Source: Sediminibacterium roseum (GTDB lineage: Bacteria > Bacteroidota > Bacteroidia > Chitinophagales > Chitinophagaceae). From it: DNA of 64,000 nucleotides. The DNA lies in assembly GCF_009939005.1 (NCBI RefSeq), contig NZ_JAACJS010000012.1, forward strand, positions 124,001 through 188,000, in the 5' to 3' direction. Of this stretch, positions 44,082-47,560 are shown in pieces (positions within the stretch are counted from its first letter, which is position 1; the number at the start of each line of letters is the position of its first letter). The notes beneath the pieces were generated by a model, which made no database searches, was not told the origin of the DNA, and was given only the letters and a program-made list of their open reading frames with translations. The position numbers were made by a program, and so were the translations under genes.

Positions 44082-45710
44082 ATGAGAAGAACTCTATTCA
44101 CCACTGTGTTGCTATGTCTTGCTGCCGCGGTTTCGGCGCAGGAGTATAGCAATTTTGCCGGGCAAACAAGCCGGCTCGAAGCGCTCAGCAAATCTTATCC
44201 CGACCTGGCCAGGCTCAGTTCGCTTGGTAAAACCAATGGCGGCAAAGAGATCTGGCTCCTCACCATCGGTACTGGTAAAACGGAAACCAAACCCGCGATC
44301 GCCGTGGTTGGCGGTACCGAAGGAAGCCATCTGCTTGGTACAGAAATGGCGATCGGTTTTGCGGAAAACCTATTGAAAGGAAGCGCAACCGACAGCATCA
44401 AGAACCGCCTTTCCAAAACAACCTACTATGTTTTCCCGAACATGAGCCCTGATGCGATGGAACAGTATTTCGCAAAGCTGAAATACGAACGCAATGGCAA
44501 TGCAACGGAAACCGACGACGACCGCGATGGCAAACTGAACGAGGATGGCTTCGATGATCTTGATGGAAACGGGAAGATCACCATGATGCGCATCGAATCG
44601 CCCATCGGCGAGTATAAGATCAATCCCGATGACGCGAGAACGCTGGTAAAAGCCGATGCATCAAAAGGAGAGAAAGGCAAATACATGTTGCTTACCGAAG
44701 GGTTCGACAACGATAAAGACGGCAACCTCAACGAAGATGGCGAGGGTGGCATAGCGTTGAACAGGAACTTTACCTACCGCCACAACACCTTCGGCGCGGG
44801 GGCGGGCGATTTTCCGGCCAGCGAAAAAGAAACAAGGGCGTTGCTCGATTTCTTATACGATGCATTCAATGTATACGCCGTTGTAAGTTTCGGCAGCAAC
44901 AACAATTTGTCTGTACCCGTGAGCTACAACCCCGTTGCCGCAAGGGAAAGGATCCTCGCAGGATACCTGGAGCCGGATGCAAAAGTAAATGGCATGGTGA
45001 GCGAGCTGTACAACAAAGTAACAGGCGCCAAAGACGCGCCACGCAGCAGTTCTCCAGGTGGCGATATCCTTTCATGGGGTTATTTCCACTATGCGCGTTA
45101 CAGCTTCAGCACACCGGGATGGTGGGTGCCAAAGGCCAAACCGGATACAGCAAAAAAAGAAAAAGCATTTACCTCCGAAGATGCGGCCGCCAATTACCTG
45201 CGCTGGGCACAGCAGCAGGGTATTTCTAATACGTTTACAGAATGGAAAGAAGTAAAACATCCCGATTATCCAAATACAAAAGTGGAAGTAGGTGGACTGG
45301 ATCCATTCGTGCTCATCAATCCCCCTTATAAAATGGTGGGTGATATCGTGAAGAAACATACCGACTTCCTGCTCAAACTTGCGAACCAACAGGCTGATCT
45401 CGAGATCGTAAATCTCAAAACAGAAAAACTGGGCAATGGCTTAACAAGGGTGAGCCTGGATGTGATCAACAAAGGCGGATTGTCTACCCACAGCAAACTC
45501 GGCGAACGCAGTTATTTCCTGAAGAAACTGAAAGTAGCGGTGAATACCGATAAGCAGCAGATCGTTGGCGGTAAGAAGATCAACCTGCTGAATTCGCTGG
45601 AGGCATCGTCAACACAGTCTTTCAGCTGGCTGATCAAAGGCACCGGAAAAGTATCGATAGAGGTGGGTTGCCCAACAGCAGGGGTAAAAAACATCGACGT
45701 AACGCTCTAA
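44082..45710 (+). CDS. M14-like carboxypeptidase homologue, catalytic residues lost
   Basis: 542 residues. Signal peptide LLCLAAAVSAQ, M14-like fold, and a C-terminal beta domain (LEIVNLKTEKLGNGLTRVSLDV). By alignment with the neighbour at 45731, the zinc motif HxxE (HSNE) is EGSH here (residues 80-83), the second zinc His is Gly271 (SFGSNN), and the catalytic Glu of NELW is replaced by Pro345. It should be catalytically dead unless ligands are swapped. It keeps two Asp-rich EF-hand-like loops (DDDRDGKLNED, DNDKDGNLNED). A secreted pseudo-peptidase with a binding role is the best reading. Confidence 0.85.
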   Translation: MRRTLFTTVLLCLAAAVSAQEYSNFAGQTSRLEALSKSYPDLARLSSLGKTNGGKEIWLLTIGTGKTETKPAIAVVGGTEGSHLLGTEMAIGFAENLLKGSATDSIKNRLSKTTYYVFPNMSPDAMEQYFAKLKYERNGNATETDDDRDGKLNEDGFDDLDGNGKITMMRIESPIGEYKINPDDARTLVKADASKGEKGKYMLLTEGFDNDKDGNLNEDGEGGIALNRNFTYRHNTFGAGAGDFPASEKETRALLDFLYDAFNVYAVVSFGSNNNLSVPVSYNPVAARERILAGYLEPDAKVNGMVSELYNKVTGAKDAPRSSSPGGDILSWGYFHYARYSFSTPGWWVPKAKPDTAKKEKAFTSEDAAANYLRWAQQQGISNTFTEWKEVKHPDYPNTKVEVGGLDPFVLINPPYKMVGDIVKKHTDFLLKLANQQADLEIVNLKTEKLGNGLTRVSLDVINKGGLSTHSKLGERSYFLKKLKVAVNTDKQQIVGGKKINLLNSLEASSTQSFSWLIKGTGKVSIEVGCPTAGVKNIDVTL

Positions 45711-45730
45711 CCATTCTAAAAAAAGAAATT

Positions 45731-47470
45731 ATGAAACGAAATATATTGATCGCCTTCGCTGCCTTAGCGTTTACTACAGCAGCCGTTGCGCAATCGCCCA
45801 GTCAATTGTTCAAGGCCGCGGGTTCGCCGGTAAACCCGAAAGTAGCTGTGGTATGGAACCGGTATTACGACCATGCCGGGCTGGGAGAGATCTGCAAAAA
45901 AATTGCAGCGGCCTATCCTGATCTTGCCAAATTTGAAACGATCGGGAAATCGTACGAAGGGCGTGACCTCTGGTTGCTGACCATCACCGATTTCAAGAAA
46001 GGCGGCGATCCGAACCGGAAGCCGGGCATGTACATCGATGGCAACATCCACTCAAATGAAATACAGGGGGCGGAGTTTGCGCTGTATACGGCCTGGTATT
46101 TAACGGAATCGTTTGCCGACACGAAGTTCATACAGGAGCTGCTGGAGGACAAGGTTTTTTACGTGGTGCCAACGATCAACCCCGATGGCCGCGACAGTTA
46201 CATCCACAAACCAAACAACGCAAGTTCGCCGCGCTCGGGGTTAAAGCCGGTAGACAATGATGGAGATGGGTTGGTGAACGAGGATACGTATGATGATCTT
46301 GATGGCGATGGCAACATTACGCTGATGCGCAGAAAGAATCCGAATGGCCGGTACAAGATCGATCCGAAGGATCCGCGCAATATGATACAGGTGGGACCCG
46401 ATGAAAAAGGCGATTACGAACTGCTTGGCATTGAAGGAATAGACAACGACGGCGACGGCCGTGTAAACGAGGACGGGTACACATTTGAATACGATCCCAA
46501 CCGCGACTGGGGATGGGGATGGCAGCCGAATTACATCCAGAACGGCGCGTACAAATACCCGTTCTCTTTCCCGGAAAACAGGGCGGTGATGGAATTCGTT
46601 TTCAAACACCCGAACATCGCGGCCGCACAATCATTTCACAATGCAGGGGGAATGATCCTTCGCGGGCCGGGCGGAATTGAAGACGTGGGAACCTACAATG
46701 CACAGGACGTAGCCGTGTACGACGCGATCGGTAAAAAAGGAGAAGAGTTCTTACCGGGTTACAAATACCTGGTGGTTTACAAGGACCTGTATTCCGCGTA
46801 TGGCGGAGAGCTCGACTGGTTCTATGCAGGAAGGGGGATCTATACTTATTCGAATGAATTGTGGACGCCCTACCTGATGTTTATGAAAGACGGCTCGCGC
46901 GACCAGTTTGACAACCCCACTTACAGCTTCGACCGTTACCTGTTGTTCCAGGATGCGTTTGTGCCCTGGAAAGAATACAACCACCCGCAATATGGTAAAA
47001 TAGAGATCGGCGGTTTCAAGAAAAACTTCACGCGTGCGCACCCAGGGTTTTTACTTGAGTCGGATGCACACCGCAACATGGCTTTCAGCGTGTACCACTG
47101 TTATTCAACACCAAAACTGGAAGTGCAGGAGATCAGCGAAAAAGACCTCGGCGATGGCCTGAAGGAAGTAACGGCCGTGATCGCCAACCAGCGCCTGATG
47201 CCCACACACAGCAGCCAGGACACAAAGAACAAAATAGAGCGCCCCGATTACATTACCCTTTCAACGGGCGGAAAAGTATTGGCGGGAATGCGTGTAGAGA
47301 ACCGCGACCTGAACCTTACTACCGAACAGCAAACCAATCCGCAAACCATCGAAGTTCCGAACATACCGGGTCTTGGAGCGGTTACAGTGAAATGGATCGT
47401 GCAGGGTGGAGGAAAGTATACGGTGAGTGTGGATAGTAAGAAAGGTGGAGTGGCAACGCTTACAAAATAG
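45731..47470 (+). CDS. M14-family zinc carboxypeptidase, secreted
   Basis: 579 residues from the ATG at 45731. Signal peptide AALAFTTAAVAQ. The zinc motif is GNIHSNEIQ (His107, Glu110), the third ligand is His303 in SFHNAGG, and the catalytic Glu is E376 in TYSNELWTP; NPDGRDSYIHK and DPNRDWGW are the substrate-site blocks. Two Asp-rich loops (DNDGDGLVNED and DNDGDGRVNED) are inserted and look like calcium-binding repeats. It should release C-terminal residues from peptides in the periplasm or outside. It is a tandem paralogue of the preceding gene, 20 bp apart. Confidence 0.92.
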   Translation: MKRNILIAFAALAFTTAAVAQSPSQLFKAAGSPVNPKVAVVWNRYYDHAGLGEICKKIAAAYPDLAKFETIGKSYEGRDLWLLTITDFKKGGDPNRKPGMYIDGNIHSNEIQGAEFALYTAWYLTESFADTKFIQELLEDKVFYVVPTINPDGRDSYIHKPNNASSPRSGLKPVDNDGDGLVNEDTYDDLDGDGNITLMRRKNPNGRYKIDPKDPRNMIQVGPDEKGDYELLGIEGIDNDGDGRVNEDGYTFEYDPNRDWGWGWQPNYIQNGAYKYPFSFPENRAVMEFVFKHPNIAAAQSFHNAGGMILRGPGGIEDVGTYNAQDVAVYDAIGKKGEEFLPGYKYLVVYKDLYSAYGGELDWFYAGRGIYTYSNELWTPYLMFMKDGSRDQFDNPTYSFDRYLLFQDAFVPWKEYNHPQYGKIEIGGFKKNFTRAHPGFLLESDAHRNMAFSVYHCYSTPKLEVQEISEKDLGDGLKEVTAVIANQRLMPTHSSQDTKNKIERPDYITLSTGGKVLAGMRVENRDLNLTTEQQTNPQTIEVPNIPGLGAVTVKWIVQGGGKYTVSVDSKKGGVATLTK

Positions 47471-47485
47471 TTGCTCAATAGTAAC

Positions 47486-47560
47486 AAGGCACAAGCATAC
47501 AGGGAAACAGGATCTTTTGAACTACGATTCCGGAACACCTGCAGGCTTGTGCCTTTTTTT
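47486..47560. terminator. Long-loop inverted repeat with T tract
   Basis: AAGGCACAAGC at 47486-47496 and GCTTGTGCCTT at 47545-47555, an 11-bp perfect stem with a 48-nt loop, ending in a T run. It lies between the convergent M14 and aminotransferase genes. Confidence 0.65.

Follow-up and report, generated by a model that had tools for sequence, protein, structure and literature searches.

Catalytically inactive members of the M14 metallopeptidase family have been described from eukaryotes, namely AEBP1/ACLP, CPXM1, CPXM2, domain III of CPD, and Ecm14, which have the M14 fold and have lost catalytic residues. This loss is partial: according to Table 2 of PMC11266112, H69 is kept in five out of five and E72 in four out of five, and all M14 pseudopeptidases covered in the accessible text of this source are eukaryotic. 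Here, a tandem pair of M14 homologues is described, located in a 64,000-nucleotide stretch of the bacterium Sediminibacterium roseum (contig NZ_JAACJS010000012.1, positions 124,001 to 188,000; hereafter the window). The downstream, active-type protein carries the full catalytic set of carboxypeptidases T and A. In contrast, the upstream, dead-type protein lacks the three zinc ligands and the general base, and it also differs from the eukaryotic M14 pseudopeptidases in that it keeps none of H69, E72, H196, and E270. We know of no eukaryotic M14 pseudopeptidase that is made from a two-gene operon together with an active partner.

Such a gene arrangement is known from a different family. The bacterial M16B pairs TTHA1264/TTHA1265, SPH2681/SPH2682, and AlbF/AlbE consist of homologous metallopeptidase subunits from two-gene operons (PMC11266112). 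In M16B pairs the inert or incomplete subunit is required; TTHA1264 is inactive alone, its partner having been predicted from the adjacent gene, and MPP alpha lacks the zinc motif yet is needed (PMC12731061). The M16 fold of these pairs and of MPP alpha/beta is unrelated to M14, and their contact is known from structures, whereas contact within the pair described here is a prediction. No bacterial M14 pair of an active and an inactive protein was found in the open-licence PubMed Central (PMC) literature on M14, among the matches listed. While eukaryotic M14 pseudopeptidases and bacterial M16 active/inactive pairs are already known, a bacterial M14 pair appears to be new in this literature.

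Loss of the catalytic residues

In pairwise and multiple alignments, His107, Glu110, His303, and Glu376 of the active-type protein face Glu80, His83, Gly271, and Pro345 of the dead-type protein, the corresponding motifs being HSNE and EGSH, SFH and SFG, and NELW and TPGW. The same four columns had been named in an original prediction made from the letters of the window, and they are confirmed here. A chance result or a misalignment was rejected, as separate alignments of 58 and 94 dead-type sequences agree. The smaller alignment omits the split dead-type gene of locus L073. The larger one comprises open reading frames (ORFs) of at least 300 amino acids (aa), reduced from 135 rows to 94 by removing duplicates over the last 400 residues.

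H69, E72, H196, and E270 are missing from every one of the 94 distinct dead-type proteins, so the loss is ancient and not a local decay. The first position is occupied by Glu in 71 proteins, Lys in 12, Asp in 9, and Ser and Ala in one each, and the second by His in 70 and by ten other residues elsewhere. The column of H196 contains Gly (65), Ser (25), or other residues (4), and that of E270 contains Pro in 85 proteins and other residues in 9. The proposed exact reversal of HxxE to ExxH is therefore correct for the window protein and variable elsewhere, and the expectation that ExxH, Gly, and Pro would be fixed was not borne out. The alignments indicate that only the loss is fixed, ExxH being a frequent but non-essential lineage state. 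With both positions varying, including Lys in place of Glu, a fixed new metal site formed by the reversed motif was rejected. From the residue loss, the dead-type protein is predicted to have no enzymatic activity.

The active-type protein shows the opposite pattern, with all four catalytic positions intact in 59 out of 59 near relatives. It is predicted to be a catalytically competent zinc carboxypeptidase. At position 255 the window protein has Leu; the 48 active-type proteins of the phylum have Leu in 29, Ile in 9, Thr in 8, and Asn and Val in one each. The rules for this position in carboxypeptidase A tie it to the preferred C-terminal residue, which suggests that the active-type protein prefers C-terminal residues that are hydrophobic or neutral.

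The sole exception at H196 among the 48 proteins is a Leu in the first of two active copies at locus L157 (genome G700), as if another copy were starting to lose the zinc site. Tandem active copies occur in two genomes of family f37, behind one frame-split dead gene (L149, G499) or behind a dead-type fragment (L157, G700).

Co-occurrence and gene order

The two genes occur in a nearly invariant arrangement. At 49 out of 49 loci the active gene lies just downstream of the dead gene on the same strand, with a gap of 4 to 188 nt (median 18; 48 of the 49 loci, with active starts placed by alignment and L073 omitted), compared with 20 nt in the window. All 29 further sampled stretches with both genes likewise have the dead gene first and on the same strand.

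The searches used the sets A1 (51 of 57 references plus the window) and A2 (50 of 58 references plus the window). In the family sample, the full pair was present in 10 of 147 genomes, the window's own included. In the order sample, the dead gene was detected in 20 of 298 genomes, all 20 of which also contain the active gene, albeit on two short contigs in one case (G162). The phylum sample, in which kinship beyond the window's class is a sampling label, contains the active type in 37 of 395 genomes, each with at least 495 bits; the next match, of another kind, reached 197 bits. The dead type accompanies it in 36 of these 37 genomes, G700 being included for its 165-aa dead-type fragment, which lies at the start of a contig. 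In the remaining genome, G517, the active gene is truncated by the contig start, where the dead gene would lie. The dead gene alone was found in 0 of the 395 genomes. Scoring in this sample was limited to three first-look candidates from each genome, and further copies may be missed. The pair thus forms an enzyme/pseudoenzyme two-gene unit with near-total co-occurrence and one unlinked case, G570, whose genes lie well inside different contigs and are nevertheless both kept.

These results bear out the proposal that the same pair, with the dead copy conserved beside the live one, occurs in other Bacteroidota. Its carriers include strains of Sediminibacterium and Lacibacter. Within the same genus, both genes are present in 5 of 11 genomes in the order-sample listing and neither in 6. 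Absence of the dead gene from close relatives had been named as a result that would speak against the proposal, and the gene is indeed missing in these six genomes; the active partner is missing there too, since A1, which also detects the partner, gave no match.

A divergent second dead/active pair in the same order was observed in family f44 at L151 (G650) and L152 (G476), with ORFs of 691 to 734 and 602 to 606 aa. G476 contains an ordinary pair in addition to the divergent one.

Beyond the phylum, the search covered plasmid records. It yielded one full-length homologue from the haloarchaeon Halomontanus rarus (L182:4995-6656), which is alignable over 94% of either protein with about 27% identity. 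This homologue is of the active type, with intact zinc ligands and base, a similar architecture, and no dead copy beside it. Five other plasmid records gave partial matches, exclusively to the active protein.

Evolution and selection

In a tree of 97 proteins, 43 dead-type proteins lie on one side of a branch with a Shimodaira–Hasegawa-like approximate likelihood ratio test (SH-aLRT) value of 99, and 48 active-type proteins are likewise separated with a value of 100, so that each type forms one clade. The order of subgroups is broadly alike between the two. The tree was built by a quick method and contains several long branches; fragments of L149 and L157 were omitted from the underlying alignment. 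A second tree, which includes the archaeal homologue and omits the long dead-type rows L145, L147, L154, and L165 as well as five of six rows of a third M14 group, agrees. The live, single-copy haloarchaeal homologue and the other M14 rows fit a loss in the direction from live to dead, with the root unsure because of long outgroup branches.

The third M14 group (L158, L161, L162, L163, and L164; ORFs of about 640 to 690 aa) has the same Asp-rich insert as the pair and keeps H69, E72, and E270. In five out of six rows, Asp replaces the zinc ligand H196 and His replaces N144; perhaps its zinc site is altered.

The original prediction also held that the dead gene is under selection, and this is supported by the ratio of non-synonymous to synonymous substitution rates (dN/dS). 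Over 33 shared close-relative pairs, the median is 0.071 for the dead gene and 0.029 for the active gene. The pairs are non-independent, have dS values of 0.1 to 1.6 in both genes, and were drawn from 37 dead-type and 36 active-type chosen sequences excluding the window. The dead gene evolves faster than the active gene, under clear constraint. Its catalytic residues are gone while it remains under purifying selection, as in a pseudoenzyme, and a neutral pseudogene was rejected on the basis of dN/dS and phylum-wide conservation.

Distances within the dead and active clades are correlated (r 0.89), a value that none of 2000 permutations reached. This congruence was not counted as proof of contact, as any co-inherited pair gives a similar r.

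Fold and architecture

Both proteins match Pfam Peptidase_M14 (PF00246), the dead-type protein with 76.5 bits and the active-type protein with 135.3 bits at a cut-off of 21.6. Pairwise alignment gives 28% identity across 571 columns (E 3e-53). As this similarity runs nearly end to end and includes the Asp-rich insert and the C-terminal region, the two proteins are paralogues that share a single architecture. For the dead-type protein, the AlphaFold2 model has a mean predicted local distance difference test (pLDDT) of 80.3 and a predicted template modelling score (pTM) of 0.81, with pLDDT below 50 in the insert region (132-144 and 219-244). Compared with chains of carboxypeptidase T and carboxypeptidase A (CPA4), it gives Z scores of about 26 over 259 to 284 aligned residues at a root-mean-square deviation of 2.9 to 3.4. 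This match indicates that the dead-type protein has the M14 alpha/beta fold, in line with the earlier claim that the fold and the Asp-rich loops are kept. The model of the active-type protein was poor (pLDDT 58) and unusable for a fold test.

Two features set both proteins apart from carboxypeptidases T and A: the Asp-rich insert, which lies between R127 and N144, and the C-terminal beta-rich region. The DxDxDGxxxED-type motifs of the insert are, from the motif alone, probable Ca2+ loops. A signal-peptide-like N-terminus was recognised by eye in both proteins, and both are probably exported. Gln20, the residue after the putative signal peptide of the dead-type protein, is kept in 52 of 58 sequences. 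Type IX secretion tails are modelled in NCBIfam. An NCBIfam scan assigned no family to either protein, so there is no sign of such a tail.

Possible role of the dead-type protein

In the proposed explanation, one transcription unit would give rise to two exported proteins of shared architecture, composed of the M14 fold with the Asp-rich insert and then the C-terminal beta-rich region. The second would be a zinc carboxypeptidase and the first its ancient, catalytically dead paralogue and non-catalytic partner. This partner is most probably a subunit or a periplasmic or extracellular companion, which would use its rebuilt cleft, with the Asn-Lys/Arg pair still present, either for docking substrate C-termini or for stabilising or activating the enzyme. 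An old duplication with total catalytic loss in one copy, constant gene order, and near-total co-retention is the pattern to be expected if an enzyme has a non-catalytic subunit as its partner. On balance, we lean towards a dead-type protein that acts directly on the live enzyme by docking or activating, where the contact and the cleft ligand are predictions. A broader proposal is more tentative and rather unlikely to hold in full, namely that a single ancient duplication gave rise to phylum-wide two-subunit M14 carboxypeptidases, in which one subunit lost all zinc chemistry, kept the carboxylate clamp, and turned into a dedicated docking subunit that delivers substrate ends to the live one.

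In carboxypeptidase A, N144 and R145 hold the terminal carboxylate of the substrate. Their equivalents are kept in the dead-type protein of the window, and across the dead type N144 is Asn in 89 of 94 proteins and position 145 is Lys or Arg in 85 of 94. A binding role leans mainly on these two residues, because the dead-type cleft as a whole exceeds the remaining domain only slightly in conservation.

Several observations weigh against a direct partnership. The conservation of N144/R145 may be structural, and their stretch is modelled at pLDDT below 50. R127 is lost in the dead clade; Arg occupies this column in 3 of 43 proteins by one alignment and in none of 94 by another, which aligns the loop differently. 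The entropy of the dead-type cleft is 1.45 compared with 1.71 for the rest of the M14 domain (Mann-Whitney p 0.053; p 0.017 with the insert excluded from the rest), and 581 of 5000 random segment sets were as conserved. As proof of binding, cleft conservation was set aside as weak. Linked genes co-occur with correlated distances even without contact. In the family-sample genome G120, no dead-type match accompanies the active-type fragment, which sits at the start of a contig. Moreover, the dead genes of L073 and L149 are each broken into two frames, which reflects either an error or decay, and the active gene of L060 is broken as well.

The dead-type protein could instead be an independent exported binding protein that captures peptides or carboxylate ligands, or anchors to the surface or matrix, and serves the same nutrient or turnover pathway without contacting the enzyme. 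The kept N144/R145 pair and the probable export of both proteins are in line with this role, as is the interaction of eukaryotic M14 pseudopeptidases with collagens given in the abstract of PMC11266112. Five Daejeonella-type loci also share a further exported protein, a putative peptidase, as a neighbour. However, a loose link within a pathway does not usually produce so strict a pattern of shared presence or absence together with a constant gene order, and we consider this role possible but doubtful.

Improbable is a folding or export chaperone that acts on the active enzyme in biogenesis only and stands in for the pro-domain of other M14 enzymes. The dead gene comes first in every linked pair examined, and little sequence precedes the M14 domain of the active-type protein, whose Pfam match begins at residue 55; both points would suit a chaperone. 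The shared architecture and the kept carboxylate-binding pair would be unexpected for a pure chaperone, and there is no sign of a merely transient action.

Slightly less probable still is a new enzyme whose rebuilt cleft (Glu80, Asn140, Asn275, His336, and Pro345-Gly-Trp) catalyses another reaction. Asn140 (42/43), Asn275 (41/43), and His336 (40/43) are near-invariant among the dead-type proteins and differ from the residues of the active clade, but inspection by eye revealed no conserved alternative set of metal ligands: of 94 proteins, 12 have Lys and 9 have Asp instead of Glu80, and 24 have another residue instead of His83. A functionless relic in decay, to which the two frame-split dead genes might point, is scarcely credible given a dN/dS of 0.07, one old clade, and full-length ORFs in and outside the window's class. 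Overall, the pseudoenzyme role put forward in the original prediction is supported as far as the conserved dead copy next to a live enzyme is concerned, and unsupported with respect to fixed replacement residues.

Locus and neighbouring genes

The features of the locus are compiled in Table 1. For the second gene, a program-made ORF list begins at TTG 45668; ATG 45731 was used here. In the window the pair is flanked on both sides by opposite-strand genes, encoding a methyltransferase and an aminotransferase. These two are also the commonest neighbours overall, each occurring at 22 of 89 loci; as neighbours reach only this frequency, the pair itself is the unit.

The strong hairpin and T run after the second gene make the pair look like one transcription unit, and the 20-nt gap and shared strand agree with the operon that had been proposed. 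A single transcript is predicted for the two genes. The hairpin has a long loop and separates the pair from the convergent aminotransferase gene. A consensus terminator scan, which admits loops of 3 to 8 only, did not report it.

Table 1. Features of the M14 gene pair, in window coordinates
Feature	Position	Strand	Evidence or conservation
Dead M14 homologue gene (542 aa + stop, ATG start)	44082..45710	+	ORF, Pfam, pairwise alignment, predicted fold
Probable Sec signal peptide, dead-type aa 1-19 (before Gln20)	44082..44138	+	By eye
Glu80-Gly-Ser-His83, replacing zinc ligands H69/E72	44319..44330	+	Alignments
Asp-rich insert with two DxDxDGxxxED-type motifs, common to the active partner	44514..44738	+	Alignment
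Asn227-Arg228, N144/R145 equivalents, kept	44760..44765	+	Alignments; pLDDT <50 here
Gly271, replacing zinc ligand H196	44892..44894	+	Alignments
Pro345, replacing general base E270	45114..45116	+	Alignments
C-terminal beta-rich region, dead-type aa 436-542	45387..45707	+	Model secondary structure; no match to a named fold
Active-type M14 carboxypeptidase gene (579 aa + stop, ATG start)	45731..47470	+	ORF, Pfam, alignment
His107-Ser-Asn-Glu110, zinc ligands	46049..46060	+	H/E in 59/59 near relatives, 48/48 phylum-wide
Arg168, R127 equivalent	46232..46234	+	R in 48/48
Asn257-Arg258, N144/R145 equivalents	46499..46504	+	48/48
His303, zinc ligand H196	46637..46639	+	47/48
Glu376, general base E270	46856..46858	+	48/48
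Hairpin then T run, likely terminator for both genes	47486..47555	+	z -5.5

Significance

Dead enzyme copies are often hard to separate from decaying genes. In this case, the inactive M14 protein goes together with an active one both inside the window's class and outside it, and the pairing gives a clear testable prediction, namely a complex or a dependence between the two. Automatic annotation would probably name both proteins peptidases, because the dead one scores far above the Pfam cut-off. If the broader proposal is true, the two-subunit class would be to M14 what the active/inactive heterodimers are to M16, and it would have stayed hidden because annotation by sequence would take both subunits for ordinary peptidases.

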